Shown: piece after piece, positions 27,081 to 44,629 of the stretch
Layout: each line of letters opens with the position of its first letter
Numbering within the stretch: position 1 is the first letter of the stretch
Assembly: GCF_001865575.2 (NCBI RefSeq)
Contig: NZ_CP017561.2
Location: forward strand, 1,364,001 to 1,428,000
DNA length: 64,000 bases
Source of the DNA: Paraburkholderia sprentiae WSM5005
Lineage (GTDB): Bacteria > Pseudomonadota > Gammaproteobacteria > Burkholderiales > Burkholderiaceae
Direction: 5' to 3'
The notes under the pieces: model-generated
What the model saw: only the letters and a program-made list of their open reading frames with translations
Told to the model about the DNA's origin: nothing
Database searches by the model: none
Position numbers and translations under genes: made by a program

Positions 27081-27337
27081 ATTGCGCTCGCGCAAAGCGA
27101 TCTCCGACGCCCGCGCTACCCGCATCCAGGCGCACCCGTGAAGTGATGCCTCCGGCGTACTACGCATACGAAAGCGCACGAATGAAGCCGTCATTTCGCG
27201 GGCGCAAACGAACTGTCTGAACGACGACTCCGGTACTGTCGCATGTCGAATGTGGGCACGCGCACGCACAGCCGGGAGCGCGGCACATACACTCTTCCCT
27301 GAGGCCAAATGGCGTTTTGCGACAGATAGGACAGAAC

Positions 27338-28573
27338 ATGAAAGTGGCGATCGTGCACGATTGGCTGGTCGCTCCCGGCGGCGCCGAGAAAGTGCTCGAG
27401 CAGATCATCGAGTGCTTTCCCGACGCCGACGTTTTCAGCGTCGTCGATTTCCTCGAAGATCGCGCGCCGCTTGCCGGCAAGCCGGTCACCACCTCGTTCA
27501 TTCAACGTCTGCCGTTTGCGCGCACTCGTTATCGCGCCTATTTGCCCTTGATGCCGCTCGCCGTCGAACGGTTCGATCTGTCGAGCTACCACCTGGTCAT
27601 AACGAGTTCTTGCGCGGTCGCGAAGGGCGTGCTGGTCGGTCCCGACCAGACGCACATCAGTTACGTGCATTCGCTGATGCGGTATGCGTGGGATCTGCAG
27701 CATCAATATCTGCGCGACGCGAATCTGTTGCGCGGGCCGAAGTCGTGGGCGGCGCGCGTGTTGCTGCATTATCTGCGCGGCTGGGATGCGCAGTCCACGA
27801 ACAGTGTGGATCGTCTGATCGCGAATTCGCAATCGGTCGCGCGGCGCATGATGAAAACCTATCGGCGCGATGCCGCGGTGATTCCGCCGCCGGTCGATGT
27901 GGACGAATTCGAACTGCGCACCGAGAAAGACGATTTCTATCTGACGGTGTCGCGCATGGTGCCGCGCAAACGCATCGATCTGATCATCGAGACGTTCAAC
28001 GCGACGCCGCAGCGCAAGCTGATCGTGATCGGCGACGGGCCGCAGATGGCGTCGCTTCGCGCGAGCGCCGGACCGAACGTGACGATTCTCGGCAATCAGC
28101 CGTTCGGCGTACTTAAGGATTATCTGGCGCGCGCGCGAGCTTTCGTGTGCGCCGCCGACGAAGATTTCGGCATCGTGCCGCTCCAGGCGCAGGCCTGCGG
28201 CACGCCGGTCATTGCGTTCGGTAAGGGCGGGGCGCTCGAAGCGGTGGTGCCGGTCGGCGACCCGCATCCGACCGGGGTTTTTTTCGCGCGCCAGACGGCG
28301 GTGTCGATACTCGACGCGATCGACCGCTTCGAGCGGCTGAGCGCGTACATCACGCCAGCGGCCTGTCGCGCGAACGCCGAGCGGTTTTCGGCTCCGGTGT
28401 TCCGGCGCGCGTTCATGGCCGAGGTCACGCGCACGATCGCGGCGGGCGCACAGGGTCTGCCGGCGCTGGAGCCCGGCGAGCAGGTGGCGTGGGCGGAGCC
28501 CGATCTCGCGACGCGGGAACTCCGCATCGCCAGCGACACCGCGCCCAACAGCAGGAAGAGGGCATTGAGGTGA
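27338..28573 (+). CDS. GT4-family glycosyltransferase (WbaZ-like mannosyltransferase)
   Basis: A 411-residue GT-B enzyme. The N-terminal lobe starts KVAIVHDWLVAPGGAEKVLE, and the C-terminal lobe has the EX7E retaining motif in EDFGIVPLQAQACGTPVIAF (about residue 269). WbaZ-type enzymes transfer mannose in O-antigen or exopolysaccharide assembly. The inner ATG (27338) with AGGACAG upstream is preferred over the open-frame start at 27317. It stands alone on the plus strand, but the initiating transferase WcaJ, a flippase and a GMP-like gene lie within 16 kb. The last 40 residues are low-complexity and may be dispensable. Confidence 0.85.
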   Translation: MKVAIVHDWLVAPGGAEKVLEQIIECFPDADVFSVVDFLEDRAPLAGKPVTTSFIQRLPFARTRYRAYLPLMPLAVERFDLSSYHLVITSSCAVAKGVLVGPDQTHISYVHSLMRYAWDLQHQYLRDANLLRGPKSWAARVLLHYLRGWDAQSTNSVDRLIANSQSVARRMMKTYRRDAAVIPPPVDVDEFELRTEKDDFYLTVSRMVPRKRIDLIIETFNATPQRKLIVIGDGPQMASLRASAGPNVTILGNQPFGVLKDYLARARAFVCAADEDFGIVPLQAQACGTPVIAFGKGGALEAVVPVGDPHPTGVFFARQTAVSILDAIDRFERLSAYITPAACRANAERFSAPVFRRAFMAEVTRTIAAGAQGLPALEPGEQVAWAEPDLATRELRIASDTAPNSRKRALR

Positions 28574-29682: not shown

Positions 29683-31089
29683 TCAGAACGCGTTGCGGCC
29701 GACAAAGCCCTTGAAAATGGTGATGAAGACAATCTTCATGTCGAACCAGAACGACCAGTTCTGGATATAGAAGAGATCGAACTTCACGCGCGCTTCCATC
29801 TTTTCGACCTTGGTGGTGGCGCCGCGATAGCCATTGACCTGCGCCCAGCCGGTGATGCCGGGCTTGATGCGATAACGGTGCATGTAGCCGCGCACCTGGT
29901 CCTTGTACAGATCGTCGTGTTCGACCGCATGCGGACGCGGACCCACCACCGACATCTGACCGAGCAGCACGTTCAGAAACTGCGGCAGTTCGTCGAGACT
30001 CGTGCGGCGCATGAAGCTGCCGAGCTTCGTCACGCGCGAGTCGTTGCGGGTCGCCTGCGTGATCTGGCCGTGCTCTTCCTGGTGCACGGTCATCGAGCGG
30101 AATTTGTAGATGCCGAACGGCCGGCCGTCGACGCCCTTGCGGATTTGCCGGAAAAACACCGGTCCCGGCGAGGTGAGCTTGATGCCGATCGCGAGCGCGA
30201 CGAAAACCGGCGCGAGCGCGAACAGCGCGAGCGCGGCGAACACGCGGTCGAACATCAGCTTGGGCCACATCTGCGGCGGCGAGAACGGCGTCGCGCTCAA
30301 ATTCAGCGTCGGCAAACCGACAACATCGGCGATCGCATGATTGAACAGCGACAGACTGCGTACATCGGGAATGAAGCGCAGATTGACGAAGTCGTGTCTG
30401 AAGGTGCGCGTGAAGCGGTAGATCGTGCGTTCCTCGGAGAGCGGCAACGCGAGCCACACTTCGTTCACGCGTTCATCGCGCACCTTCGTCGCGAACGCCT
30501 TCAGATCGGTCAGCACGGGTAGCCGGGTCAGACGCGCGCCATATGCGTCGTGGCCTTCCACGCTGGTATCGAACACGCACACCGGTTTGAAGCCCGCTTG
30601 CGGCGCATGCTCGAGGTGTGCGAGCAGCGTGCGCGCAAAGCCCGGTGCGCCGACGATCGCGACGGTGCGCGCGTTCATGCCGCGGCGGCGCATGAAGCGT
30701 AGCACCACGTGCATGATGCAGCGGGTCGCGATGATGAGCGCGCCGGAGATCAGTGTCGAGTAACCGAACCACAGGCGCGACACCGCATCCGTCCGATGCA
30801 GCGTGAACGCGAGCACGAGCGCGGTGGCGACCACCATGAGCCACGCGGCGGCGATTCTCGCGAGCACCGGCGCGAGCGCCTTGCCGCGCCAGGTCTCATA
30901 GACGCCAAAGCCCGGAAACAGCAACAGAACCAGCACACAGTTGAACGCGATCAAAAGGCGCTCGGTATCGGCTAACGCGATTGGCGTGGAGAAGCGCATC
31001 CAGTGGGCGAGCATGCCGCCCACAATCACGAAGAGCGCGTCGAGGCATCGAGCGGTCATCCTGAACATAGGCAAATCGATCCCGGTCAT
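29683..31089 (-). CDS. Undecaprenyl-phosphate glucose phosphotransferase (WcaJ/BceB type)
   Basis: A 468-residue polyprenyl-phosphate hexose-1-phosphate transferase that starts exopolysaccharide repeat-unit assembly. Four N-terminal helices, a CoA-binding-like domain (AIVGAPGFARTLLAH) and a fifth membrane segment precede the catalytic domain. That domain contains RKGVDGRPFGIYKFRSM, RRTSLDELPQFLNVLLG, SVVGPRPHAVEHDD and PGITGWAQVNGYRG. Length and architecture match WcaJ. It sits 15 bases downstream of the Crp/Fnr gene, so the two are probably cotranscribed. The sugar could be glucose or galactose. Confidence 0.92.
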   Translation of the reverse strand: MTGIDLPMFRMTARCLDALFVIVGGMLAHWMRFSTPIALADTERLLIAFNCVLVLLLFPGFGVYETWRGKALAPVLARIAAAWLMVVATALVLAFTLHRTDAVSRLWFGYSTLISGALIIATRCIMHVVLRFMRRRGMNARTVAIVGAPGFARTLLAHLEHAPQAGFKPVCVFDTSVEGHDAYGARLTRLPVLTDLKAFATKVRDERVNEVWLALPLSEERTIYRFTRTFRHDFVNLRFIPDVRSLSLFNHAIADVVGLPTLNLSATPFSPPQMWPKLMFDRVFAALALFALAPVFVALAIGIKLTSPGPVFFRQIRKGVDGRPFGIYKFRSMTVHQEEHGQITQATRNDSRVTKLGSFMRRTSLDELPQFLNVLLGQMSVVGPRPHAVEHDDLYKDQVRGYMHRYRIKPGITGWAQVNGYRGATTKVEKMEARVKFDLFYIQNWSFWFDMKIVFITIFKGFVGRNAF

Positions 31090-31104: not shown

Positions 31105-31839
31105 TTATTCAACGGTCTCGGCCTGGCGCAGCCGCGGCAGCAGACGATCGAATTCGCGCTTCACGAGGCCGTAGCATTCGCACGCGCGGGCTTCGAGGCC
31201 CTTGCGGTCGAGCACCTTGATATGACCGCGGCTATGATGAATCAGACCTTCGTCGTGCAGCTTGCCGGCCGCTTCGGTGATGCCTTCGCGGCGCACACCG
31301 AGCATGTCGGCGATCAGTTGCTGCGTGACGGTCAGGTCGTTCGATGCCACGCGGTCCACTTCGATCAGCAGCCAGCGGCACAGTTGCTTGTTCAGTGCGT
31401 GATGGCGATTGCACGCGGCGGTCTGCGCGACCTGGGTCAGAAGAGCGTGCATGTACAGCAGCATCAGGCGGCGCAGAAAGTCGGAACGCGCGAACTGTTG
31501 CTTGAGCGCCTGCGCGCTCATCCGGTAGGCGAAGCCCGCGCATTGCACTTGCACGCGGTTAGGCATGGTCTCGCCGCCCGTGAGGACCGGCACGCCGGTC
31601 ATGCCTTCGCGGCCGACCGCGGCGATCTCGACCGAACTGCCGTCTTCCATCGTCGAGAGCATCGAGATGATCGCGGTGGTGGGGAAGTACACGTGATGGA
31701 TCCGTTGACCCGAATCGCACAACAGCTGCTCGGTGCGCAGATGAACCAGTTCGAGGTGCGGAGCTAGCGCTTGCCATTCGTGCGACGGCAATGCGCCCAG
31801 CAGATGGTTACCGTGCAGATCGGATTGAAGTGTCAACAT
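31105..31839 (-). CDS. Crp/Fnr-family transcriptional regulator
   Basis: A 244-residue protein. An N-terminal cyclic-nucleotide-binding-like beta barrel (residues 15-130) is followed by a C-terminal Crp-type winged helix with LIADMLGVRREGITEAAGKL near residue 175. There are no Fnr-type N-terminal Cys residues, so it is not an iron-sulfur oxygen sensor. It probably regulates the wcaJ-like gene directly downstream and perhaps other polysaccharide genes. The effector is unknown. Confidence 0.87.
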   Translation of the reverse strand: MLTLQSDLHGNHLLGALPSHEWQALAPHLELVHLRTEQLLCDSGQRIHHVYFPTTAIISMLSTMEDGSSVEIAAVGREGMTGVPVLTGGETMPNRVQVQCAGFAYRMSAQALKQQFARSDFLRRLMLLYMHALLTQVAQTAACNRHHALNKQLCRWLLIEVDRVASNDLTVTQQLIADMLGVRREGITEAAGKLHDEGLIHHSRGHIKVLDRKGLEARACECYGLVKREFDRLLPRLRQAETVE

Positions 31840-32457: not shown

Positions 32458-35145
32458 CTAGCCGTAGAAGATGGCGGATAGCGCATTGATCGCGCGGACT
32501 TCCCCCCGGGGTGCCGCGCATGTTTCATCAACTTTAAAGACTGCGTTCGATGCAGTTGCAACGACTTCCTGCGGCGACGCGGCGAACGCGGTCGGCAGCA
32601 ATGGGTCGAGCGCAAGCAACGGCACGATGGTGCGCCGGTTCGGCGCGAGATGGAACCAGTCGCGCGCCGCGCGGTAGTACGGATCGATAATATGAACGAA
32701 GCGCGCAAAGCGCTTCGTTTCGATCGCGAGATGCCAGCCGTTGCCGTCGCCGCTACGTTCGAGCTCGACGGTCATACCGATGTCATCACGCGCGTGCACG
32801 CTACGCTCGGGCAGATGAAACGCTTCAGACACGATCTCGCCGCTCGCGGCATCGTAGAGCGTTGCAATCGTGACATCGTGCGCGCGCGGGCCGAAGCGGT
32901 ACGCATGCGTGAAATCGAAGAACTGGCCGAGATACGCGGCCGCGCTGATGCGTCGCAGGCTGCGCGGGGCAAGCGTCAGCGCGTGGCGCGCTGAGGCGAC
33001 CTTTATGCTGCCGTCGCGCAGACAGACCAGTTCGAGTTCGCCGCTAAACGTTTGCGCATGCTCGTTGATCAGGTGAATGTCGAGGCCGTTCAGGCCTTCG
33101 TCGGTGAGCGTGACCTGCAGGGACTGCAGCGTCTGCGCGAAGCCGTGTAGCGCGCTTTTGGGCCGTCCTGTCGCATCGATTACGCCCCAGCCCGCGCCCG
33201 CTCGCAGATCCTGCAACTGCCAGACGAGACCGCCACGGCACGGAGAACCCGCGCGCCGCCATTCGGCGAACACGTCGCCGATCAGCTCGGCGACCACCGC
33301 GCGCGACAGATCCAGATAACGCGCCGCGTCTTCATAGCGCAAGCGCGCCGGCTCGACGCCGTAGAGCGACTGCAGATAGAAATCGCGCACGTCGTCGAAA
33401 TCCCAGCCCGCGCCGGCATCACGCGGCACGGCGGCTTTCCAGCGCGGATCGTGCCGATGAATCGTGCCGAGCGCCTCATGCAGCGTCGCCTCGTCGGGAA
33501 CGTTGGCAAACGCCAGACATTCGGCGGCGAAGCGGACCTGGGCACCGCGCACGTCGGCGAGCGGGCGCTGATACGCGCCCACTCCGTAGTAATGCGTGAT
33601 GCCCTCGTTAGTCGAAAACGGCCATGGTCCGCCAGACGGCGAGTTGCTGACATAGGGGACGTCAGCGCGTTCGCGCGCGACGAGCGCAGGCAACAGCTCG
33701 GTAAACAACGGATGCGCGCGCCGCGCCACGGGCAGTCCGAACATGGCCGCCTGCTGATCGACCTCGCTGCCGCCGCACAGCACCGCGAGCGACGCGAAGC
33801 GACGTGTGCGAGTCAGGAACTGGCTCGCTTCTCGTTCGATCAGTGCGCTGAACGCGGCATCGTTCGGGTAGTCGAAGTTCGCCAACGCGAAGTCCTGCCA
33901 GATCAGCAGGCCGTACTCGTCGGCGAGTGCATAAAACAGATCGGACTCATAGAGCGTCGTGCCGCCCACGCGCAGCATGTTCATGCCAGCGGCGCGCGCG
34001 AGCTCGAACGTATGGCGCAATTGCGCCTCGGTGCCGGCGAGCGTGACGAGATCGGCGCTCGTCCAGCACGCGCCGCGGCAGAACACGGGCACTTCATTCA
34101 CGCGCAACGCGAAGTCCCCGCCGTCGGCGCCGCGGTCCACTTCGATCCGACGAAAGCCGATCGAGCCAAGAGAATGAGACATCACCTTGCTGTCGGCGAG
34201 CTGCAACGTCACAGGATATAAAGTGGGCTCTCCGTGCGTATGCGGCCACCAGCGTTTCGCGTCGCGCACGCGAACGTTGCCCGTGAGTGTGTATGCATCG
34301 CGCCATTGCAAAGACGAAACATGATCGCCGCAAGAAAGTGTCGCGCGGCAGATGGTGGGGTCATGGGGGTGGACGAAACGTAACGTCAACGAAACAACCC
34401 CGTCGTCGCGCTCGAGCCGGCTGGTCAGATCAATCGTGTCGAAGGCGTGCGGCGCGTCGCCAAGCATCTCGATCGGACGCCATGGACCGACCGCCTGAAT
34501 CGTCGGACACCAGCCGGGCATATGACCGAGCAGCGTGGTGCGCACATTGCGAAGCGTCGGCGGCGACACGAGCCGCGGTCGCCAGCGTGCGCGCGGGCGT
34601 TTAGCGGTCAACGCTGGGGTAAGGGAGCGAAAGCACAGCACGAGCGTTGCGCGTCCATTCAGTTCGATATCCAGATCGTGTGCGATGAACATCGATTCGG
34701 AATCGAGCCGCTTCACATCGTCGAGCCACACTTGCGCGAGCGTCGCGAGTCCATGAAAACGCAAACGGCGCGACCCCTCGCCGATCAGTGTGACGCGATA
34801 CCAGTGATCGTCGAACGCGAGTTGTGGCGGGTGATCGACATCGAGCAGACCCGCTGCGCGCCGCGCACTCGCGACGGTGCCGGGTACGGGTGCGGCGAGC
34901 CAGCCTTGGGCGGGCAGATCGGCCGGCGACTCGTACGCGTGCGGTGGCGTGCTCAGACATGCCCAGCCGGTGTCGAGCCGTTGTGGCCATAGCGCGGGCG
35001 CGGTGGGCGCAGTAGGCGCAGTGCTAGCCTCGTGCGCCGGCGCGAGCGCTCCGGCCGCGCGCGGCCGGCCGGCGCCGCCCTCGTCAGCCGCCGGATCGAG
35101 TGTCGATACATCCACGGTCAATTCCCCGGAAAAGCTGCGCGGCAC
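32458..35145 (-). CDS. Glycoside hydrolase family 2 (beta-mannosidase-like) protein
   Basis: An 895-residue protein with the GH2 order: N-terminal jelly roll (residues 60-230), Ig-like domain, a TIM barrel from about 340, and C-terminal beta domains. The barrel contains RGACWTSADL, GMNMLRVGG and YALADEYGLLIWQDF. AVLCGGSEVDQQ offers the acid/base Glu (usual W.GNNE) and RFAAECLAFANVPDE offers a candidate nucleophile Glu (usual SEFGFQ.FP), so catalysis is plausible though both motifs are atypical. No signal peptide is seen; an Ala/Thr/Pro-rich stretch fills residues 25-50. It starts 27 bases after the DUF1839 gene, as last gene of the carrier-protein operon. Confidence 0.82.
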   Translation of the reverse strand: MPRSFSGELTVDVSTLDPAADEGGAGRPRAAGALAPAHEASTAPTAPTAPALWPQRLDTGWACLSTPPHAYESPADLPAQGWLAAPVPGTVASARRAAGLLDVDHPPQLAFDDHWYRVTLIGEGSRRLRFHGLATLAQVWLDDVKRLDSESMFIAHDLDIELNGRATLVLCFRSLTPALTAKRPRARWRPRLVSPPTLRNVRTTLLGHMPGWCPTIQAVGPWRPIEMLGDAPHAFDTIDLTSRLERDDGVVSLTLRFVHPHDPTICRATLSCGDHVSSLQWRDAYTLTGNVRVRDAKRWWPHTHGEPTLYPVTLQLADSKVMSHSLGSIGFRRIEVDRGADGGDFALRVNEVPVFCRGACWTSADLVTLAGTEAQLRHTFELARAAGMNMLRVGGTTLYESDLFYALADEYGLLIWQDFALANFDYPNDAAFSALIEREASQFLTRTRRFASLAVLCGGSEVDQQAAMFGLPVARRAHPLFTELLPALVARERADVPYVSNSPSGGPWPFSTNEGITHYYGVGAYQRPLADVRGAQVRFAAECLAFANVPDEATLHEALGTIHRHDPRWKAAVPRDAGAGWDFDDVRDFYLQSLYGVEPARLRYEDAARYLDLSRAVVAELIGDVFAEWRRAGSPCRGGLVWQLQDLRAGAGWGVIDATGRPKSALHGFAQTLQSLQVTLTDEGLNGLDIHLINEHAQTFSGELELVCLRDGSIKVASARHALTLAPRSLRRISAAAYLGQFFDFTHAYRFGPRAHDVTIATLYDAASGEIVSEAFHLPERSVHARDDIGMTVELERSGDGNGWHLAIETKRFARFVHIIDPYYRAARDWFHLAPNRRTIVPLLALDPLLPTAFAASPQEVVATASNAVFKVDETCAAPRGEVRAINALSAIFYG

Positions 35146-35172
35146 CAGGCGCGCGCATCAACGCATCAACGC

Positions 35173-36183
35173 TTAGCGCACCAGAGCGGCCAGCGGCGGC
35201 AGCGTTTTTTCATAAGCGCTTTCGAGCACGTCGAAGCAGTCTTCGCAGCTATCGCGACGGCCGCGCGCGAGCGCGCGAATCAGCCGGAATTGCATCACCA
35301 TCGACTCCGACGCGATGCGTTGCGCGGCGGCCGGTATCGTCGGCGGAATCTCGAAGCCTTGTGCGAACAGCCACTGCAGATACTTCGACAGAAACTCGAA
35401 GTTCGCGCCGAGCTGCCGCATCAGATTGAACGAGTACAGGTGGAAGTACGCCTCGTCGCGATCGAACAGCATGTCGAGATGCGTGGGAAACGCGGCACGC
35501 CATTGCGATATCGGATTGGTCAACGGGCGCCGTTCCAGATGCGCGCACAGCAAGTCCGCCGACGCCTGCGCGAGCGCGCTGCCTTCAAGCGCGGGGCGCG
35601 CCTGCTTGGCGAACTCGACGTAGGGAAACAGCAGATCGGCTTGCGCGGTGAAATGCGGCAGCTTGCGAAACACGCCGTCGTAGTCGTCGCCCTCGAGCCG
35701 GTGATAGCTGGTGTTGTGGAAATAGCCGAGGCGACGCGCGGCGGTGTCGACGAAGTCGATGCCGATCGTGGTCTTCGGATGCTCACTGCGATACGAGGTC
35801 GCGCGCGTATCGGGCAGGTAGTAGCCGTCCACCTCGACGAGCACGGTATGTCCGCGCAGTGTCTGCGCGAGCACGCGTTGTTCGAGCGAGTCGTAGATCG
35901 CGAGCTCCTGCACCTGGATGCCGTACAGGCGTCCGAGATCGTCGAGTGGAAACTTGAAGAACGTGAACTGATCGCCTTCGAAATCCTGTGTGACCGTAAA
36001 CGCGAGCGCCGCGCGCGGATCGAGCCCGAAGCCGTGCAGCAGCTCGATCCATAGATCGACATAGCAGTTGGTCTCCTGCCACACGCGCTCGCCCTGATGC
36101 AGCGCGTGCGCGACGTGTTCGCGCCACGGCGTGTCGCCACGGGGCGCCGCGCCGTCAAGCGCCGGACTCGGCGATGGCTTCAT
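35173..36183 (-). CDS. DUF1839-family protein
   Basis: A 336-residue protein of a family found almost only beside amino acid:[carrier protein] ligases. Conserved-looking blocks include ETNCYVDLWIELLHG, FTVTQDFEGDQFTFFKFP, VLVEVDGYYLPDT and GIDFVDTAARRLGYFHN. The blocks resemble a papain-like or butirosin-BtrH-type fold (Cys41 in NCYVD, and the His in GYFHN), which would fit an acyltransferase that takes the aminoacyl group from the carrier protein. That reading is inference. The ATG overlaps the ligase stop (ATGA), so translation is coupled. Confidence 0.8.
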   Translation of the reverse strand: MKPSPSPALDGAAPRGDTPWREHVAHALHQGERVWQETNCYVDLWIELLHGFGLDPRAALAFTVTQDFEGDQFTFFKFPLDDLGRLYGIQVQELAIYDSLEQRVLAQTLRGHTVLVEVDGYYLPDTRATSYRSEHPKTTIGIDFVDTAARRLGYFHNTSYHRLEGDDYDGVFRKLPHFTAQADLLFPYVEFAKQARPALEGSALAQASADLLCAHLERRPLTNPISQWRAAFPTHLDMLFDRDEAYFHLYSFNLMRQLGANFEFLSKYLQWLFAQGFEIPPTIPAAAQRIASESMVMQFRLIRALARGRRDSCEDCFDVLESAYEKTLPPLAALVR

Positions 36184-37241
36184 GCGCGCTCCGTGGCGAC
36201 GCTTGACGTTGGCGTCGACGGCGCCGCCTGCAGCGCATGCGCGACGCGGGTTTCGGTATCGCCCCACAGCAGCGCGCGCACTTCGTCGGGCCACGTGTTG
36301 ACGTCGAGCCCATGATGACGGAACAGCGCGAGGGTGATGCGTTCCATGCCGAAGCCCACACAGCCCGTATGCGCAGTCGCACCGTCGTGGCAGGCGATCT
36401 TCCAGATCGCGCCGAAGTGGTCCATGTGATAGTTGAACGACAGGCAGGCCGTCTTGCCGCGCGGGTCGGCGACCGGGATCAGCAACTCGAACTTGAGCGC
36501 CTGCGAGCGCTGGCTATCGGCGACGATCTTGCCGCCGCGGCCGAAGAACGGATCATTCGCGAGATCGACTTCGACCGGCAAGCGCAGCAGCTTCACGAGC
36601 AGCGAGCCGCGCTCGATCCACATCTGGCGGAACGCCATCACCTGCTCGGGACTGCCGAGGCGCACGTATTCGCGTTGGCGGAACATCTGCATGCGGCCCG
36701 GATCGAGCGATGGCTCATGGCGAAAGCAGTACGACAGCACGTCGACCGTGCGGCCGCCGGCGGGCAGGGGGCCGCGCCGCGCCATCACCGGATAGATCGG
36801 ATAGCAGGCGGCCGGCGTCAGCACGACGCGCGTCGGTTTCTGTTGCGCGAGCCATGCGTCGCCGCGATCGTCTTCGCTGTCGGCCATCGCATCGTCGAGC
36901 GCGCGCAGCAGACGGTGGTGGCCCATGTCGTTGCCGCAGAACGAATGAATGGTGCCCGCGAGATTCGGAAAACTCTTCAGGTACTCGCTATCCTCGAAGT
37001 CGGTGCGGCGCATCGCGGGCGGAAAACGCAGTACTTCGGGCTGCTGATCTTTACCCAGCTGCGTAATCGCCACGTTCAGACGGTCGATCACGTCCTCGAA
37101 AATCTGGCTGCGGCCATACAGCCCGTTTTCCCCGGTATCGATCAGCAGGCCGGCGGCCAGCATCTCGTCGCGCAGCGTGAGGGAAGGCCCCAGATCGGCG
37201 GCGGCCGCGGCGACAGCGGCGGTATGGGTCATCAGCTTCAT
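36180..37241 (-). CDS. Amino acid:[carrier protein] ligase (class II aaRS paralogue, Bll0957 family)
   Basis: A 353-residue homologue of atypical seryl-tRNA synthetase catalytic cores, lacking any tRNA-binding domain. Known relatives such as Bradyrhizobium Bll0957 activate Gly or Ala with ATP and load it onto the phosphopantetheine of a small carrier protein. The zinc ligands of that family appear as Cys in TPAACYPIYP, Glu in FRQREYVRLG and Cys in AHTGCVGFGMERI. The last also contains class II motif 3 with its ATP-binding Arg. Motif 2 is around SYCFRHEPSLDPGRMQMFR. The gene abuts the dehydrogenase stop and overlaps DUF1839. The amino acid used cannot be read from sequence. Confidence 0.9.
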   Translation of the reverse strand: MKLMTHTAAVAAAAADLGPSLTLRDEMLAAGLLIDTGENGLYGRSQIFEDVIDRLNVAITQLGKDQQPEVLRFPPAMRRTDFEDSEYLKSFPNLAGTIHSFCGNDMGHHRLLRALDDAMADSEDDRGDAWLAQQKPTRVVLTPAACYPIYPVMARRGPLPAGGRTVDVLSYCFRHEPSLDPGRMQMFRQREYVRLGSPEQVMAFRQMWIERGSLLVKLLRLPVEVDLANDPFFGRGGKIVADSQRSQALKFELLIPVADPRGKTACLSFNYHMDHFGAIWKIACHDGATAHTGCVGFGMERITLALFRHHGLDVNTWPDEVRALLWGDTETRVAHALQAAPSTPTSSVATERA

Positions 37242-38549
37242 TCAGGCTCTCCCCGGCGCGGCAGGACGTTGCGCGAGCAGCAGACTCGCGGTGTTCTGCG
37301 CGATGCGGTCGTTATTGATCATCAAGGGCGCCGAGTGCAGGTCGCGCAGATGGCGGCCGACGCTATAGGGCGTGCCGTTCTTGTAGCCCGCCATGCCGCA
37401 GATCATCAGCACCTGCTGGACGACCTGCAGCGCGGTGGTCGAGATGCTGGTCTTCAGCGTGTTCATGTCCGACGCGAAACCCAGCATGGCCGCGAGCGGG
37501 GCGTCCGCTTGTGCTGCGCCGTCGCGTGCCCGATGCGCGGCGCGCGCGGCTTCCAGCGCGACCGACAGACGCGCCTGCATCATCTGCAGCAGGCCGACCG
37601 CTTCAGCCAGCCGCAGGCCCGCGGGCGGCATCGTGCCGGGCTTGGCGCGCGCCTGCGCACGGAAGAACGCCTTCGCGCGATTGACCGCGTCGAGCGCGAT
37701 GCCGGTCCACACCGACGCCCACAGTATGTGCGACACGGGCAGCATGGTCTGATCGGCGATGTCGGCGAACGGTGTCGCGAGAATCTGTTCGGCCAGTCCC
37801 GTCGCGACGAGCCGGAAGCCCTCGCTGCAGGTGCCGCGCATGCCCATCGCGTCCCAGCCGCCGCGCCGCTCGAGCTGCGTATCGGCGCGCAGCGCCACGA
37901 TCAGCAGCTGGTCGGACGCGGCCGCGTCGGCGGTGCGGCGCGCGGTCACCAGGATGCCGTCGGCGTGCGCGCCGTAGGAGATCGTCGGGGCGAGCTTGTC
38001 GATCCGAAACCGCGCGCCATCGAGTTCGACCGAGCACGCGCTGGTGCGCATGTTGCCGCCGATCGTCTCTTCCGACGTCGCCGACGCGAGCAGCCATTGC
38101 TGCTCGGCCAGCTGCGCGAGCAGGCTCGCGTGCCAGGCCGAGGCGCCGCGATGCGAGTCGATGCACGCGACCTGGATCTGATGCATCGCATAGATCATCG
38201 CCGTCGACGCGCAGCCCTGCGCGAGCGTCTCGCAGATCGCGCCGATATCGGCAAGCGACAGCCCTGCGCCACCGTAAGCGCTCGGCACCATCGCCGAGAG
38301 CAAACGCTCGCCCTTGAGCGCGTCGAACGCCTCGGCCGGAAAGCGCGCCTCGCGGTCCACGGCGTCCGCGTGCTGCGCGGCGATGGCCGCGCAACGATGC
38401 GCTGCGGCACGCCATTCGGGACCGGACGCGAGCGCGGTCAGCGCCACGTTGGCAGCGGCGTGGCCATCGTGGGTCTGTGTGTCGGTAGTCGAGTTCGCGG
38501 CCGCCCCGGAGGCCGCCGCGGCGGCCTGATCCAGCAGCGGTGCACTCAT
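37242..38549 (-). CDS. Acyl-CoA dehydrogenase-like flavoenzyme acting with the carrier protein
   Basis: A 435-residue protein with acyl-CoA dehydrogenase fold. The N-terminal helical domain contains YGGAGLSLADIGAICETLAQ. The middle beta domain contains ATSEETIGGNMRTSACSVEL. The C-terminal helices contain MICGMAGYKNGTPYSVGRHLRD. Related enzymes in nonribosomal pathways oxidise aminoacyl groups on carrier proteins (for example prolyl-carrier dehydrogenases), which fits the adjacent ligase and carrier protein. The usual catalytic Glu position could not be assigned with certainty. It overlaps the carrier-protein stop by 4 bases. Residues 1-30 are Ala-rich and probably disordered. Confidence 0.82.
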   Translation of the reverse strand: MSAPLLDQAAAAASGAAANSTTDTQTHDGHAAANVALTALASGPEWRAAAHRCAAIAAQHADAVDREARFPAEAFDALKGERLLSAMVPSAYGGAGLSLADIGAICETLAQGCASTAMIYAMHQIQVACIDSHRGASAWHASLLAQLAEQQWLLASATSEETIGGNMRTSACSVELDGARFRIDKLAPTISYGAHADGILVTARRTADAAASDQLLIVALRADTQLERRGGWDAMGMRGTCSEGFRLVATGLAEQILATPFADIADQTMLPVSHILWASVWTGIALDAVNRAKAFFRAQARAKPGTMPPAGLRLAEAVGLLQMMQARLSVALEAARAAHRARDGAAQADAPLAAMLGFASDMNTLKTSISTTALQVVQQVLMICGMAGYKNGTPYSVGRHLRDLHSAPLMINNDRIAQNTASLLLAQRPAAPGRA

Positions 38550-38797
38550 GCCGCCGCCTTAGCCCGCTGCAGCTCCGTGATCGCGGCGGCCATCGAGTCG
38601 AGGCTCGAGAATAGTCGGCGCGTCAGCATACGGTCAGGAATCTCGACGTTGAATTCGTCTTCCATGGCAAGCATCAGATGCACGGTCGCGAGCGATGAGA
38701 GTCCGGCAGCATAGAGGTCGGCGTCGTCGGCAAGACTATCCACCGGGACATCCAGGCGTGCGGATTCGGAAAGGATGCGTCTCAATGCAGTCTTCAT
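38546..38797 (-). CDS. Acyl carrier protein-like (aminoacyl carrier protein)
   Basis: An 83-residue four-helix carrier protein. DLYAAGLSSLATVHLMLAME holds the Ser (near residue 35) that would receive 4'-phosphopantetheine. Canonical ACP has DSL; here GLSSL, as in the small carrier proteins paired with amino acid:[carrier protein] ligases. It is the first gene of the five-gene minus-strand operon, with a 4-base overlap to the next gene. It is not the fatty-acid ACP, whose locus would be fabD-fabG-acpP-fabF. Confidence 0.88.
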   Translation of the reverse strand: MKTALRRILSESARLDVPVDSLADDADLYAAGLSSLATVHLMLAMEDEFNVEIPDRMLTRRLFSSLDSMAAAITELQRAKAAA

Positions 38798-39153
38798 GCA
38801 GTGTTCCCCTTATGTTCGAAGGTCTGTCGGTTGGTGCCCAGCTCGAACGATCGGCGGCACCTGATTTTCGTGTGTAGAGTCCGGGCGGTGCGATGACCGC
38901 GGCGCGCGTGCGCGATGTCGCAGTGCCGTGATGCAGATGGATCTCGGTTGAGCCATCTGCGATAAGCGGCCTGCGCTTCATTGACTCGTATTTAAGAATT
39001 GTCAAGCCCGAGCGTCAGTGCGATGGCGCACGGAAGCGCATCTTTCGCGCACGTACCGTGTAGCCCATGATGAGGGACCGTCATGGATCGGGCTGCCGTC
39101 GCGCACGCCAGGCGTTGCCGGTCCGCCGAGATTGTTGACCACCCGGGGACGTG
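38798..39153. promoter_or_regulatory. Divergent promoter region, carrier-protein operon and GNAT gene
   Basis: There is no gene in these 356 bases. On the minus strand TTGACA (39000-39005), 17 bases and AATGAA (38977-38982) form a candidate promoter about 180 bases before the carrier-protein gene. The -10 box is weak. Confidence 0.4.
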
Positions 39154-39687
39154 ATGAACTGGAAAACGCTGGAGTTCGATCAGCTATCTGCACGTGAGCT
39201 ATACGTCGTGCTGCGTGCGCGCAGCGCGGTATTCGTCGTCGAGCAGTCGCATGTATGCCTCGACCCGGACGGTCGCGACGAGCAGGCCTTGCATGTGTTC
39301 GCGGTCGAGGACATGGCGCGGCCGATGCCGGTGCTCGCCTATGCGCGGGTGCAGCCCGGCGATTCCGAAGATCCGGAAGTGACGATCGACAAGGTGCTGA
39401 CGAGCCCGCTGCGGCGCGGCGACGGTACCGCGGAGATGCTCATCGAGCGCGTGCTCGAAGCGGTCGCCGAACGCTGGCCGGGACGCGCCACGCGCGTGAG
39501 CGCACCGCTCGGCTTGCGCGGGTTCTACGAGCAGTTCGGTTTCCGTAAGACGGAGGGGCCGTACCTCGAACACGGCGCGCCGTTCATCGGTCTCACGCGT
39601 CAGGTGCGCGGCGCGCCGGCGCGCTTCGGTTCGCGGCGCCGCGAGCGCGGCGCCGCATCGTTCGTCAACACGTTCGAGCTGTTGTAG
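39154..39687 (+). CDS. elaA: GNAT-family N-acetyltransferase, ElaA type
   Basis: A 177-residue protein of the ElaA group. RARSAVFVVEQ near residue 22 is the conserved first strand-helix element. KVLTSPLRRGDGTAEMLIE near 85 is the acetyl-CoA-binding motif, in altered form (usual R..G.G..L). The end of the domain reads RGFYEQFGFRKTEGPYLEHG. A 30-residue Arg-rich tail follows. The acceptor is unknown. A GTG at 39151 is an alternative start directly before the ATG. Its position beside the carrier-protein operon is divergent, and no link is evident. Confidence 0.8.
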   Translation: MNWKTLEFDQLSARELYVVLRARSAVFVVEQSHVCLDPDGRDEQALHVFAVEDMARPMPVLAYARVQPGDSEDPEVTIDKVLTSPLRRGDGTAEMLIERVLEAVAERWPGRATRVSAPLGLRGFYEQFGFRKTEGPYLEHGAPFIGLTRQVRGAPARFGSRRRERGAASFVNTFELL

Positions 39688-39779: not shown

Positions 39780-41249
39780 TTAGCCTTGCGCCGGTCCGGA
39801 CCACGGCACGAAACGCAGCCACAGCCTGTAAAGCGCAGCGCGCAACTCGCTCGATCCAAGCAGCGACATGCCGAAGTTCGCTGCGCTCAAACCGAGCGCG
39901 ACGGCGATCGCCAGCAGCAACGCGTCGATCGAATCCGCGAGCGCGAGCGCGACAAGTAAAAACGCCAGATGCGCGAGCATATTGCGCACGATCGTCCACG
40001 CATGCAGTCGTGAGAATGCAAGCAATACGGAATAATCGAATAGCGCTTTCAGCACGACGACGAGCGCCGCGCCCATGATCCCGAACCAGTGGATGCCGCA
40101 CCACAATGCGCCGGTGAAGAACGGCAACTGCAGCCAACTGACGCTAGCCACCGCCGCGGGATGGGTCTGCGCCTGCAACAAACTGCTGAGGATGCTCGAC
40201 TGCCCGCTCAGCCACACGCCGAGGATCAGCACGCTCGCGACCGGCGCCGAGGCGGCGAGCTGCGGTCCGAGCCACAGCAGCAGGAACGGCTTCAGCGCGA
40301 ACAGCGCGACGATCATGCACGGCGTAAAAGCCCCGTTGAGAAACGCGAGCGCGTGGTGCGCGAGCACATCCGCATCCTCGCGCGACGCCGCCGACAGACG
40401 CGGAAACAGGGTTCGCACGATCGCGAGCGGCAGCAGGTTCAATCGATTGATCAGGTTTTGCGGCGTCGCATAGTAGGTGACGAAGCGCGCGCCGAGCAGC
40501 CCGCCGACGAGCACCCGGTCGAGCGTCGACGCAATCATGTTGGCGCCGGAAAACATCAGCAGCCAGCGGCCGTAGCGAAACAGGCCGATCATCAAACGCC
40601 AATGCGGCATGCGCATGCGGCGAATGTGGAGCGCGCGAATCGCGGCCACGCCGAGCAACAGGCCGGCGACCAGACGCGCGATCACGGCGGCGGGAATCGC
40701 GATCGCGAGCGACGGCGAAAAGCAGACGATCGCCGCGATCGGCAGCAACTGGAACAGCGCGGTGCCGAACATCTGGTTGATGTTGTAGCTCGCGAAGCGC
40801 TCGACGCCGGTGATCGCGCCCGCGAACACCCAGGTGACGTTCGCGATCGGCACGGCGACCGCGATCCACGGCAGGCTCGCCATCACTTCATGCTGGAACG
40901 TCGGCTCGATTTTTACGCCGTAGGTGATGTAGACGATGGTGGCCGCATAAATCAGCGCACCGCCGATGATGCCGGTGCCGAGATTCATGAAACACGCGCT
41001 CCAGAAAATCGGTTCGATCGAATCGTCGTTGGCCGCGCGGGCCTTGGCGATCTGATTTTCCGTCGCGAGACTGGTGCCCAGATCGAGGACGCTGAAGTAG
41101 CCGATCAGCGTCCACAGCAGATTGATCACCCCATAGCGCTCGACGCCCAGCAGATGAATGTAGGCGGGCACGGTCACGAGGGAAACGAAGGTCGGCGCAA
41201 CGGCGCCGGCAAAGTTGACGAAGATGTTCCTGACGATGCTTCTTTCCAT
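39780..41249 (-). CDS. Polysaccharide repeat-unit flippase-like membrane protein (Wzx/MOP superfamily)
   Basis: A 489-residue very hydrophobic protein with about 12-14 membrane helices. It starts RNIFVNFAGAVAPTFVSLVT and contains GTSLATENQIAKARA after the second helix, both typical of O-antigen translocases. It would move undecaprenyl-linked repeat units, such as those begun by the WcaJ homologue, across the inner membrane. The gene stands alone, divergent from the hydrolase gene. Confidence 0.85.
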   Translation of the reverse strand: MERSIVRNIFVNFAGAVAPTFVSLVTVPAYIHLLGVERYGVINLLWTLIGYFSVLDLGTSLATENQIAKARAANDDSIEPIFWSACFMNLGTGIIGGALIYAATIVYITYGVKIEPTFQHEVMASLPWIAVAVPIANVTWVFAGAITGVERFASYNINQMFGTALFQLLPIAAIVCFSPSLAIAIPAAVIARLVAGLLLGVAAIRALHIRRMRMPHWRLMIGLFRYGRWLLMFSGANMIASTLDRVLVGGLLGARFVTYYATPQNLINRLNLLPLAIVRTLFPRLSAASREDADVLAHHALAFLNGAFTPCMIVALFALKPFLLLWLGPQLAASAPVASVLILGVWLSGQSSILSSLLQAQTHPAAVASVSWLQLPFFTGALWCGIHWFGIMGAALVVVLKALFDYSVLLAFSRLHAWTIVRNMLAHLAFLLVALALADSIDALLLAIAVALGLSAANFGMSLLGSSELRAALYRLWLRFVPWSGPAQG

Positions 41250-41603
41250 GTTCCATTGTCCGGCCGTTGAGGCGTGAGCCTATCGTGTGATTTTTCTCGT
41301 CGGCGTTGCCGCTGGATAGAGACATTTTCGCGCGCACATGGGCGGCGGCGGGAACGCGTCGCAGTGTTGCATCTTGCCCCCAGGTGCCGCGTGGCTGTGT
41401 GGGTGGCCGTACAGATAGCCGCGATTGGGCGGGGGTTAAATGTCAGAGGTGTCGATGCGCGGGCATGCTGCACTGCACCACCTGGCCATCGAAGCGCAAG
41501 CGCAGCTCGAATCGGAGTCCAAACGAATGCGGTGGGACGCACATAACGGGAACAGCACCTTTGTTGTAATGACTTGAAAGAAAGAAACCGTAAGGAGCGG
41601 ACT
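41250..41603. promoter_or_regulatory. Divergent upstream region of flippase and hydrolase genes
   Basis: This 354-base gap has no supported gene and should contain both promoters. AAGGAG lies 6 bases before a GTG at 41604, which fixes the hydrolase start. No clear -35/-10 pair or operator was identified. Confidence 0.4.
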
Positions 41604-43463
41604 GTGAGACCCATCGTCTTCGACGGCAACTTCGGCTGGTTGCATTCAGCCCACGGCCCGGATGGCGTTGTGATGTGTTCCCCGTTTGGCTACGACGCGC
41701 TGTGCACCTATCGCGGCATGCGCCGGCTCGCCGAGCGACTCGCCGCGCGCGGCATGCCGGTGCTGCGCTTCGACTACCCGGCGACCGGCGATTCAGCCGG
41801 CGATCCGAGCGACGCCGGCCTGTGGCGCGCGTGGATCGACAGCGTCAAACAGGCGGTCGCGCAGCTGCGCGCGGCGACCGGCGTCGAGCGTGTGACCGTG
41901 TGCGGTTTGCGTCTTGGCGGCATGCTGGCCGCGCTCGCCGCGCAGGAACTCGGCGACGTCCACGGTCTGGTGCTGATGTCGCCGGTGCTCTCGGGCAAGA
42001 CCTACCAGCGCGAATTGCGCGCGCATTACCGGCAGTGGCTGAAGTTGCCGGCCGCGATGGATTGCGTGGTCGAGCCCGATACCGACGAGTTCGTCGAAGC
42101 CTATGGATTCCGCATGTATCGCGACACGCTCCAAAGCCTGCACGCGGCGGAGCTGTTTCGCGCGACGAGCCGGCCGGCCGCGCGCGTGTTGCTGCTCGAT
42201 TCGCTCAACCCTGTGCGTACCGATGCGCTCGCCGCCTATTACACGAAACATGGCGTGGAAGTCGAGCGTCGCCCGTTCGACGAATATAGCCGCTTCATGA
42301 TGGAGCCGCTCGACAGCGAGATACCGCACGCCGCGTTCGAATCCATCGAGAACTGGCTGGCGGCGGGTGGTGCGCGAGCTCACGGCATGGCGAGCGTGCC
42401 CCGGCGAGGCGAAGAGCCGGCGAGCGGTCACCATGTCGCGCCGGGGTTGCGCGAAACACCGGTGTGGCTGAACGACGGCAAGGTGTTCGGCATCTACTGC
42501 CTGCCCGACGGCGCCGCGGCGGCGAGCGCGCCCGCGGTGCTGCTGCTCAATACGGGCGCGGTGTCGCGGATCGGCAATGGGCGTTTCGGCGTGCATTTCG
42601 CGCGGCGCCTCGCGCGCCAGGGGATCGCGTCGCTGCGCATCGACGTCGGCGGTGTCGGCGACAGCATGCCGTCGTGCGACACGCTGAGCCTCGACGCGCT
42701 GTACTCGCAGTCGAGCGCCGACGATGCGGCGTGCGCATCGCGCTGGCTCGCCGCGCGCGGCCATGCCGGCGCGGTGCTGCTTGGCATCTGCTCCGGCGCC
42801 TACACCGGCCTGCATGCGGCGACGCGCGAACCGGCGGTGGTGGGCGCGGTGATCGTCAACGTGCAGAAGTTCAGATGGCATAACGTCTGCGACGAACACG
42901 GCAAGCCGATGATCCCGGTGTCCGAGTTCGGTTCGACGCGCAACTACATGCGCTCGATGAAGCAGCCCGGCAAGTGGCTGCGCATGCTCAAGGGGGAGAC
43001 CGGCGGCTGGCGCATCCTGCGCGAGGTGGTGGTGCGCCACCTCGCACGGACCGGCGAAACGCTGGCGGACCGCATCGAGCAGCTGTGCGGCCTCCAGCTC
43101 GGCGCGCGCGAGGAGCGGCATATGTTCGCCAGCCTCGATGCGCGGGGCGTCGACACGCATCTGGTGTTCGGTGTGCTGGACGAAGGCGTCGAGGAACTCG
43201 AGCGCTACTTCGGCGTGCGCGGTGCGCGGCTCGCGCGCTTCGCCCGCATTCACGTGGCCTTCTGCAAGCACACCGATCACGCGATCCTGTCGTCGGTGGC
43301 GCAGCAAAACATCATGTCCTACGTCGAGAACGTCTATCGCGACGGCTTTGCGAAGCTGCGTCAACCCCGCGGCGCGGCCCTCGACGGCGAGCTGCGCAGG
43401 CAGCAACCGGAGCATGACGAAGATCGCGGCGCGGACGCGTTGCGTCCGTTCGAAGAAGCATAG
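41604..43463 (+). CDS. Two-domain alpha/beta-hydrolase protein, probably exopolysaccharide-associated
   Basis: About 619 residues with two tandem alpha/beta-hydrolase domains (residues 1-265 and 290-570). Domain 1 has the nucleophile-elbow sequence VCGLRLGGM, where the expected Ser/Cys is Arg. Domain 2 has LLGICSGAY, where the elbow residue is Cys. Each has a FDYPATGDSAGD- or IDVGGVGDS-like strand typical of serine aminopeptidase-like hydrolases. Such proteins occur in exopolysaccharide and exosortase loci, possibly as deacylases or pseudoenzymes. The GTG at 41604 is chosen because AAGGAG is 6 bases upstream. The next gene begins 14 bases after the stop, so the two are cotranscribed. Confidence 0.78.
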   Translation: MRPIVFDGNFGWLHSAHGPDGVVMCSPFGYDALCTYRGMRRLAERLAARGMPVLRFDYPATGDSAGDPSDAGLWRAWIDSVKQAVAQLRAATGVERVTVCGLRLGGMLAALAAQELGDVHGLVLMSPVLSGKTYQRELRAHYRQWLKLPAAMDCVVEPDTDEFVEAYGFRMYRDTLQSLHAAELFRATSRPAARVLLLDSLNPVRTDALAAYYTKHGVEVERRPFDEYSRFMMEPLDSEIPHAAFESIENWLAAGGARAHGMASVPRRGEEPASGHHVAPGLRETPVWLNDGKVFGIYCLPDGAAAASAPAVLLLNTGAVSRIGNGRFGVHFARRLARQGIASLRIDVGGVGDSMPSCDTLSLDALYSQSSADDAACASRWLAARGHAGAVLLGICSGAYTGLHAATREPAVVGAVIVNVQKFRWHNVCDEHGKPMIPVSEFGSTRNYMRSMKQPGKWLRMLKGETGGWRILREVVVRHLARTGETLADRIEQLCGLQLGAREERHMFASLDARGVDTHLVFGVLDEGVEELERYFGVRGARLARFARIHVAFCKHTDHAILSSVAQQNIMSYVENVYRDGFAKLRQPRGAALDGELRRQQPEHDEDRGADALRPFEEA

Positions 43464-43477
43464 GGAGTGTGTGCGAA

Positions 43478-44629
43478 ATGAATCGGATAGTTGAACCAGG
43501 CAATCCGCTCGCGACACAGGGCGGGACTGCCGCCGCGCTTCGCGAACTGACCGTGCAGCCGGTGATTCTCGCGGGCGGCTCCGCTACGAGGCCGTGGCCG
43601 CTGTCGCGCGAACGCGATCGAAAGCAGCTGATCGGGCTGATGGACGAGCAATCGCTGCTCGAAGCGACGCTGCGCCGGCTCGACGACGCGTTCGACGCGT
43701 TCGACCCGGCCGCTCACGACGCGGCGCGCACCGCGCCGCTGGCCGTACCGCTGGTGGTCTGCGCCGAGGAACCGCGGCTGCCGACGCTCGAGCGCGTCGG
43801 GCAGTACCGCAAGCCGGTGCGCATGCTGCTCGAACCGGTGGCGCGCAACACCGCGCCGGCGCTCAGCGTCGCGGCGCTCGCCGCGCGTGCGTCGAGCGTG
43901 GCCGGCGACGATCCGATCCTCGTCGCGCTGTCCGCCGATCATCCGATCGCCGATCGCGCGGCGTTCGGCGCGGCGCTCAACGAGGCGCTCGGGTATGCGT
44001 CGCGCGGCGCGATCGTCACGCTCGGGGTGCCGCCGCAGCGCGCGGCGACCGGCTACGGCTATATCCGCACGGCCGCGGCATTGGGCGACCGGGGGGCGCG
44101 GGGGATCGCGCGCTTCGTCGAAAAGCCCGATGCCGAACGGGCCGAGCGCTATTTGGCGTCCGGCGAGTACTGGTGGAACAGCGGCATATTCGTGGTGCGC
44201 GCGTCAGTGTGGCTAGACGCGATCGGCCTGTGCCGTCCGCTGATCGCGGCGGCCTGCAAGGACGCATTCGCGGGCGCGAGCGTCGACGACACCGGCGCGT
44301 GGCATCTCGCGCGCGACGCGTTCGCCGCATGTCCTGCCGACTCGGTCGACCATGCGGTGATGGCACGCATCGGCAGCGACGCGCGCCTCGTCGGCGTGAC
44401 GGTGCGGCTCGACGCGGGCGGCTCGCACGTCGGCGCAGCGGACTCGGTGCGGGATGCGTCGAGCAAGGTCGCGCGGCCGTGGGGCTTTGATGATCCGCTC
44501 GGACGTGGCGCGCGCTTTCAGGTGGCGTCGGGCGGCTATCCCGGCGAAGACGACCTGGTGCGCTTCGACGATCGGTACGGCCGCGGGCAGGGGAGCGCCC
44601 ATGCGCGCCACGGCACTTCAGGCCGATAA
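43478..44629 (+). CDS. Mannose-1-phosphate guanylyltransferase-like protein, truncated and motif-altered
   Basis: A 383-residue nucleotidyltransferase-fold protein. The signature region reads ILAGGSATRPWPLSR (residues 30-44) where active enzymes have LAGGSGTRLWPLSR, followed by RDRKQLI for the usual YPKQFL. Downstream, LEPVARNTAPA, LSADHPIAD, ATGYGYI, FVEKPD and EYWWNSGIFV are well conserved. The linker VARPWGFDDPLGRGARFQV starts the cupin-like isomerase domain of type II enzymes, but the protein ends about 40 residues later. Normal length is about 470. It may have reduced or regulatory activity. The ATG at 43478 is preferred to a GTG at 43469. Confidence 0.8.
   Translation: MNRIVEPGNPLATQGGTAAALRELTVQPVILAGGSATRPWPLSRERDRKQLIGLMDEQSLLEATLRRLDDAFDAFDPAAHDAARTAPLAVPLVVCAEEPRLPTLERVGQYRKPVRMLLEPVARNTAPALSVAALAARASSVAGDDPILVALSADHPIADRAAFGAALNEALGYASRGAIVTLGVPPQRAATGYGYIRTAAALGDRGARGIARFVEKPDAERAERYLASGEYWWNSGIFVVRASVWLDAIGLCRPLIAAACKDAFAGASVDDTGAWHLARDAFAACPADSVDHAVMARIGSDARLVGVTVRLDAGGSHVGAADSVRDASSKVARPWGFDDPLGRGARFQVASGGYPGEDDLVRFDDRYGRGQGSAHARHGTSGR

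Follow-up and report, generated by a model that had tools for sequence, protein, structure and literature searches.

An amino acid:[carrier protein] ligase operon of Paraburkholderia sprentiae as a candidate route to N-aminoacylated sugars of a surface glycan

In butirosin biosynthesis, BtrH acylates an aminoglycoside with an acyl group that is supplied on a carrier protein (CP). The role of the amino acid:[carrier protein] ligases, which resemble aminoacyl-tRNA synthetases (aaRS), was called unknown in a text of 2022 (PMC9437257). The gene neighbourhood of these ligases had been described in 2010 in a note in proof (Biol Direct 2010 5:48; PMC2922099), which in its relevant passage lists an acyl carrier protein, a redox enzyme that is probably a monooxygenase, a 'highly conserved uncharacterized protein' (Atu2574, which would correspond to DUF1839), a glycosidase and liposaccharide genes, and predicts that an amino acid is joined to a sugar amine through an amide bond. 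No test of this prediction was found in the open-licence literature. Here an operon of this type is analysed, located on the minus strand of a 64,000-nucleotide stretch (contig NZ_CP017561.2, positions 1,364,001 to 1,428,000; the window) of Paraburkholderia sprentiae WSM5005, the genome of which has 7.84 Mb and has Paraburkholderia as nearest named relatives. With a probability of roughly 0.55 we think that the product of the operon is a sugar which is N-aminoacylated by way of carrier protein loading, oxidation and amide transfer and is destined for a surface glycan. The preliminary description of this DNA had called the pathway undescribed; the function is indeed unproven, and the novelty has to be given up for the gene set and for a nearly identical prediction, both of which were printed in 2010 (PMC2922099).

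The five genes which had been described as coupled or nearly so are all present and form one run:

38546-38797, minus strand: carrier protein; PF00550 (PP-binding), NF005480 (127 bits, cut-off 72)
37242-38549, minus strand: flavoenzyme with acyl-CoA dehydrogenase fold (ACAD); Acyl-CoA_dh_N; proposed role in oxidation of the CP-bound amino acid
36180-37241, minus strand: amino acid:[carrier protein] ligase; NF005479, 'amino acid--[acyl-carrier-protein] ligase' (525 bits, cut-off 357)
35173-36183, minus strand: DUF1839 protein (437 bits), CcbD-like, proposed aminoacyl-CP:amine amide synthase; ATG at 36183
32458-35145, minus strand: GH2 protein with GH2_14 signature; GH2 N-terminal and middle domains

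Read directly, the carrier protein and flavoenzyme genes overlap by ATGA, the flavoenzyme and ligase genes meet at TGA-ATG with a zero-base gap, the ligase and DUF1839 genes again overlap by ATGA, and 27 bases separate DUF1839 from GH2. The GH2 gene starts with GTG; upstream in-frame codons run into TGA.

The carrier protein is related to Atu2571 (2jq4) and to the carrier protein of complex 4h2w. Phosphopantetheine is expected on its Ser35 (38693-38695, within a GLSS motif), the column of which holds serine in 103 of 104 rows. The earlier assignment of the ligase to the Bll0957 type holds, with 292 bits against Bll0957 itself (3mey) and 298 bits against 4h2w in the PDB, to which its AACYP, REYV and CVGFG motifs can be aligned. 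In an alignment of 102 rows, the motif variants listed, at most eight for each motif, keep the Cys, Glu and Cys which we take to be the zinc ligands. From family membership and the residues kept, the ligase would activate a small amino acid, glycine or alanine by analogy with Bll0957, and load it onto the carrier protein.

The second step would be oxidation of the tethered aminoacyl group by the flavoenzyme, either by dehydrogenation or by oxygenation. A predicted model (predicted local distance difference test 87.0) scored 40.9 with dehydrogenases and 40.3 with DszC in a fold search, which is a tie, and the fold can therefore not decide between the reactions. Ile411 is invariant in 27 aligned rows, and HMMER places it opposite the first Thr of YTGT in 7p98. 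This is presumably the place of the classical glutamate base (E376 in MCAD), some dehydrogenases carrying the base elsewhere. An isoleucine there favours an unusual flavoenzyme reaction without proving it.

For DUF1839 a role in transferring the aminoacyl group by means of a Cys-His dyad had been envisaged, and this is supported by a Cys40/His156 site and an amide synthase fold. The fold of the whole chain agrees with acyltransferases of the CcbD/CtaG/AziU3 type, which are carrier-protein-dependent amide synthases, and Cys40 (36064-36066) and His156 (35716-35718) would pair with the catalytic residues of CcbD. Cys40 is kept in 99 of 117 copies and His156 in 115 of 117; a further histidine, His135, is encoded at 35779-35781. 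A helix near residues 298-304, a candidate for the basic C-terminal helix with which acyltransferases of this type bind the carrier protein, carries a conserved QFxLxRA motif, the R303 of which is invariant in alignment A4. The only PDB sequence matched by the family profile A1 was a cysteine protease (E 0.15). DUF1839 has also been grouped with papain-like proteins, a C(T/S)H triad being ascribed to it and a function in acyl-CoA-dependent processing of cell-wall glycans suggested (PMC10318531), so that it might be a hydrolase of the cell envelope, a protease or amidase, for which the carrier protein and ligase supply an unrelated acyl group. We regard this as quite improbable. Because of the fold, the catalytic residues and the adjacent carrier protein gene, the amide transfer is preferred: the acyl group would move to Cys40 and then onto a sugar amine, the resulting amide bond being of the kind that CcbD makes in celesticetin synthesis.

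The nature of that sugar may be read from the GH2 protein. Its acid/base Glu461 (33763-33765) lies in GGSE and its nucleophile is Glu542 (33520-33522); both are found in 86 of 86 rows, the acid/base being preceded by serine in 85 and by asparagine in one. Aligned to 5n6u, the site near C2/C3 at which mannosidases have a tryptophan holds glycine in 63 rows, the window included, serine in 18, proline in four and asparagine in one (n=86). Beta-mannosidases come first among the PDB profile matches (5n6u, 281 bits) and an exo-beta-D-glucosaminidase later (58 bits). Assignment as a beta-mannosidase (GH2_13) was rejected despite the best match to 5n6u, as this would need an NE motif and the tryptophan in place of SE and glycine. 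By its motifs the protein looks GH2_14-like: the SE motif and glycine at the C2/C3 site are given as marks of GH2_14, a group with few signal peptides, one assayed member of which comes from Burkholderia (PMC12243196). No hydrophobic stretch was found at its N-terminus (best 15-residue mean 0.34). Both assayed GH2_14 enzymes were slow beta-galactosidases, measured on p-nitrophenyl-beta-galactoside, and their activity on mannobiose and mannotriose was undetectable (PMC12243196), so that the mannose-containing acceptor of the preliminary description finds no support. The serine of related glucosaminidases has been read as sparing a clash with a C2 amine (PMC12243196), and from the motif the substrate of the GH2 protein would carry a C2 amino group. 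With the CcbD-like DUF1839 and the SE/Gly motif, two lines thus point to a 2-amino sugar. Probably in the cytoplasm, the enzyme would trim or proof-read this same sugar, a beta-glycoside with an amino or acylamino group at C2.

Conservation of the gene set was followed in a sample of 398 genomes from the phylum, a sample of 230 genomes from the family, and 80 named loci, the nearest of 565 confirmed relatives, each with a view of about 10 kb to either side. DUF1839 occurs in 16 of the 398 genomes, all 16 with a ligase over the cut-off, and 12 more have such a ligase with DUF1839 absent. The order of carrier protein, flavoenzyme, ligase, DUF1839 and GH2 on a single strand is kept in all 16 phylum-sample cassettes (15 fetched ones and the window). 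The full set is present at 64 of the named loci; another 14 retain DUF1839 but none of ligase, flavoenzyme and GH2, and a contig end cuts the remaining two. GH2 thus recurs with DUF1839, a point on which the preliminary description had asked for a check. In the family sample 98 genomes have a ligase over the cut-off, 102 have DUF1839 and 93 have both (Fisher p 8e-47, kinship ignored). Five have only the ligase (G425, G455, G458, G477 and G517, the last a partial match) and nine only DUF1839 (G420, G443, G503, G557, G571, G572, G584, G620 and G625), of which G443 and G620 show weak ligase matches. The view that the operon is functional as a unit is supported.

Four layouts were found, type I being that of the window. 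Type II (L174, L176) has the ligase with a tandem alpha/beta hydrolase, called HYD here, three bases separating the two in L176; L175 is partly of this type, with a Wzx flippase, two ligases and, beside a ligase, a GT4-like relative of the window's glycosyltransferase-like protein, and no carrier protein or flavoenzyme match there. In type III (L149-L158, 10 of the 12 ligase-only phylum genomes) the flavoenzyme stands with the ligase, with a carrier protein match on the opposite strand in 8 of the 10; the hosts are, as a guess, Bradyrhizobium- and Rhizobium-like. Type IV (L164, L167, L168) has HYD, carrier protein, flavoenzyme and DUF1839, lacks ligase and GH2 at the locus, and has lost the DUF1839 cysteine in all three cases. 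In L172 (5164-11507, 16245-17975) DUF1839 is encoded on the opposite strand, on the far side of GH2, and a second, altered DUF1839 is found about 5 kb past the carrier protein gene. L174 also carries an acyltransferase-3 gene and L176 a phospholipase-C-like gene. Four loci (L021 4781-5842, L023 14101-15162, L025 14153-15226, L027 2035-3105) encode, within 10 kb of the cassette, class II aaRS-like proteins of some 353 residues which form one cluster; that of L021 matches tRNA-synt_2.

HYD is also encoded in the window and probably belongs with the operon, having been left out of the original observation. It and the other neighbours are:

41574-43463, plus strand: HYD, tandem alpha/beta hydrolase, proposed second acyl-transfer or release enzyme
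39780-41249, minus strand: Wzx-type oligosaccharide flippase (PF01943/PF13440)
39151-39687, plus strand: GNAT acetyltransferase (family scan), a cassette neighbour in 45/64 full named loci
31105-31839, minus strand: Crp/Fnr-type regulator downstream of the cassette (family scan), 47/64 full named loci
29683-31089, minus strand: WcaJ-type undecaprenyl-phosphate glucose phosphotransferase (TIGR03023, 517 bits, cut-off 411)
27317-28573, plus strand: glycosyltransferase-like protein of the flanking locus (GT4 in the preliminary description; query GT4a)

The order in the window is glycosyltransferase-like protein, WcaJ, Crp-type regulator, cassette, GNAT, Wzx, HYD and a ManC-like gene, flanks which look like a small exopolysaccharide locus. 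The ManC-like open reading frame (43469-44629) can be aligned to a relative of 527 residues in L063 at residues 1-329 and 492-526 of the latter, with no match to the part between, and looks internally shortened; a relative in L035 matches it across residues 1-327.

Domain 1 of HYD is without a nucleophile serine (GLRLG), arginine or glycine standing there in all 24 rows shown. Domain 2 has a GICSG motif with cysteine in 30 of 33 rows, two gaps and a single glycine, which comes from L164, a locus without ligase and with a Cys-less DUF1839; its Asp and His are present in 31 of 33 rows with two gaps. In Azospirillum L117 and Mycetohabitans L118 the HYD and GH2 genes share four bases, and in other loci HYD adjoins ligase, GH2 or Wzx. 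Open reading frames of L021 (1108 residues) and L023 (1103 residues) match both flippase and hydrolase, and in 16 of 34 HYD loci Wzx is either fused to HYD or no more than 3 kb away. Of 162 HYD relatives 120 were listed; 49 of these exceed 1050 residues in length, and PF13440 is given for 49 of the 120 (hand count), the organism, where named, being Rhizobium. HYD often, though not always, lies close to the cassette; it is out of view at L059, the full cassette of P. xenovorans LB400. Because of adjacency and fusion, its Cys-Asp-His domain may carry out a further acyl transfer or release on a lipid-linked unit before or at export by Wzx. In this genome the flanking WcaJ/Wzx locus would build the product into its exopolysaccharide. 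A more elaborate and rather unlikely version is a quality-controlled decorating machine, in which the aaRS-like ligase, carrier protein and flavoenzyme would supply an oxidised aminoacyl thioester and the CcbD-like enzyme would place it as an amide on a C2-amino sugar of a lipid-linked repeat, with GH2_14 removing wrongly decorated or undecorated units, HYD coupling the final acyl step to export, and Cys-less DUF1839 proteins, of about five origins, serving as non-catalytic partners or regulators; the partner role is suggested by the sugar site of CcbD, which borrows residues of the neighbouring monomer.

Several observations weigh against N-aminoacylation of a surface sugar as the function. 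The DUF1839 profile A1 found no CcbD, CtaG or AziU3 among PDB sequences at E up to 1, a search which distant kin can escape. The cysteine is absent in 18 of 117 DUF1839 copies, and DUF1839 therefore has another role too. Type II lacks DUF1839 and GH2, and type III lacks DUF1839, GH2 and HYD; ligase, carrier protein and flavoenzyme therefore also serve elsewhere. HYD comes into view at 9 of the 15 cassettes of the phylum sample and at only 14 of the 64 full named loci, where Wzx is seen at 12. For WcaJ the counts are 44 of the full named loci, the other 20 having none in view, and 10 of the 14 solo DUF1839 loci, these genomes being close kin. In 11 loci from outside the class, including one from Azospirillum (85 flanking proteins; the commonest 25 of 92 families inspected), few glycan genes were seen, ABC transporters being commonest (5) and glycosyltransferases numbering 2 and 2. 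No amino-sugar biosynthesis gene was recognised among the flank families inspected. The link to polysaccharide genes made in the preliminary description thus stands for Burkholderiaceae and, with Wzx beside or fused, for some Rhizobium-like loci; polysaccharide genes are not a constant neighbour of the cassette.

The same flanks bear on a second explanation, in which the product is a small diffusible glycoside or amide of the lincosamide or siderophore kind, DUF1839 acts on a free amino sugar and the exopolysaccharide placement is an accident of the Burkholderiaceae. The close structural relatives AziU3 and CtaG presumably come from small-molecule pathways, and so does CcbD (PMC12945683). Azospirillum L117 has no glycan genes among 21 annotated features besides the cassette GH2, the window's flanking genes are out of view at Caballeronia cassettes (L092, L096, L100-L103; flanks not otherwise annotated), and besides the ABC transporters TonB-dependent receptor genes are found near the type II cassettes L174 and L176. 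The association of HYD with Wzx, including its fusion in Rhizobium, speaks against a diffusible product, as does the lack of any NRPS (nonribosomal peptide synthetase) or PKS (polyketide synthase) family among the flank families inspected, and we consider this explanation doubtful.

The Cys-less copies could also mean that DUF1839 has mainly a structural or regulatory part in exopolysaccharide formation, its cysteine chemistry being secondary. On a tree of 56 copies (cysteine column kept in) well-supported branches force five changes of cysteine state, most simply five losses. Ten Cys-less Caballeronia-type copies at the exopolysaccharide locus have a median ratio of nonsynonymous to synonymous substitution (dN/dS) of 0.167 (45 pairs; L170 and L177 come from genomes with incomplete family match) and thirteen cassette copies one of 0.349; the lone Cys-less copies are thus under purifying selection. 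In L094, L099, L104, L106, L107, L109, L113 and L114, and in the incompletely matched L170 and L177, such a copy is kept on its own at the exopolysaccharide locus, next to its GNAT and Crp-type genes. Among the 14 solo loci, eight were compared to the window by BLAST: six (L042, L043, L064, L072, L087, L089) keep remnants of lost cassette genes, and none were found in L094 and L104. A search of 13 of the 14 genomes (L043's left out) found a ligase elsewhere in ten and none in those of L072, L087 and L089, assembly completeness being unstated. A lone Cys-bearing DUF1839 (L116, 14932-15918) lies near conjugation genes on a Rhizobium plasmid, in the record of which no ligase was found. Against a mainly structural protein stands the company which Cys-less copies keep. 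Seven of nine readable two-copy genomes pair a Cys with a Cys-less copy (L020; L019 and L028; L115; L173; C. cordobensis L099 and L105; C. pedi L102 and L109; C. temeraria L103 and L113), cysteine being present in both copies in L172, where one is otherwise changed, and in C. terrestris (L091, L093). All four genomes with a full Cys-less cassette have a Cys copy elsewhere. Furthermore, the named loci were retrieved via DUF1839, so that loss of DUF1839 alone is under-seen there, and the 230 family genomes gave five ligase-only against nine DUF1839-only cases. We consider a mainly structural role very unlikely and retain amide formation on a sugar as the likelier role.

The condensing enzymes of lincosamide biosynthesis are among the closest known systems. 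CcbD and LmbD share with DUF1839 the cysteine nucleophile, the CP-tethered amino acid donor and a sugar amine as expected acceptor, and CcbD also the fold (PMC12945683, PMC4351081). They differ in the donor, which is loaded by an NRPS-type A-domain there and by an aaRS-like ligase here; furthermore, CcbD has Cys-His-Glu (PMC12945683), whereas a C(T/S)H triad is ascribed to DUF1839 (PMC10318531), and sequence similarity between the two was not found (profile A1, PDB). With BtrH the likeness is papain-like acyl transfer from carrier protein to aminoglycoside (PMC10318531; PMC2922099 also names BtrH), while BtrH is absent from the DUF1839 fold results and has another donor and another pathway. 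The HYD domains match the exosortase-A-associated hydrolases TIGR03100 and TIGR03101 in tandem, with 84 and 95 bits below the cut-offs of 168 and 203. The 2010 note, in its passage on this neighbourhood, gives no fold of the conserved protein, GH2 subfamily, hydrolase partner, Wzx fusion or paralogue analysis (PMC2922099). New here are the case for the DUF1839 fold, the correction to GH2_14, HYD and its fusion to Wzx, the layouts and the repeated loss of the cysteine. The links to CcbD and GH2_14 and the Wzx-HYD fusion name a reaction, an acceptor class and a cellular place, all of which are testable. If the proposed function is true, the long-known amino acid:[carrier protein] ligases gain the job they lack, and an amide-forming route which borrows translation machinery joins the modes by which bacteria decorate their surface sugars.

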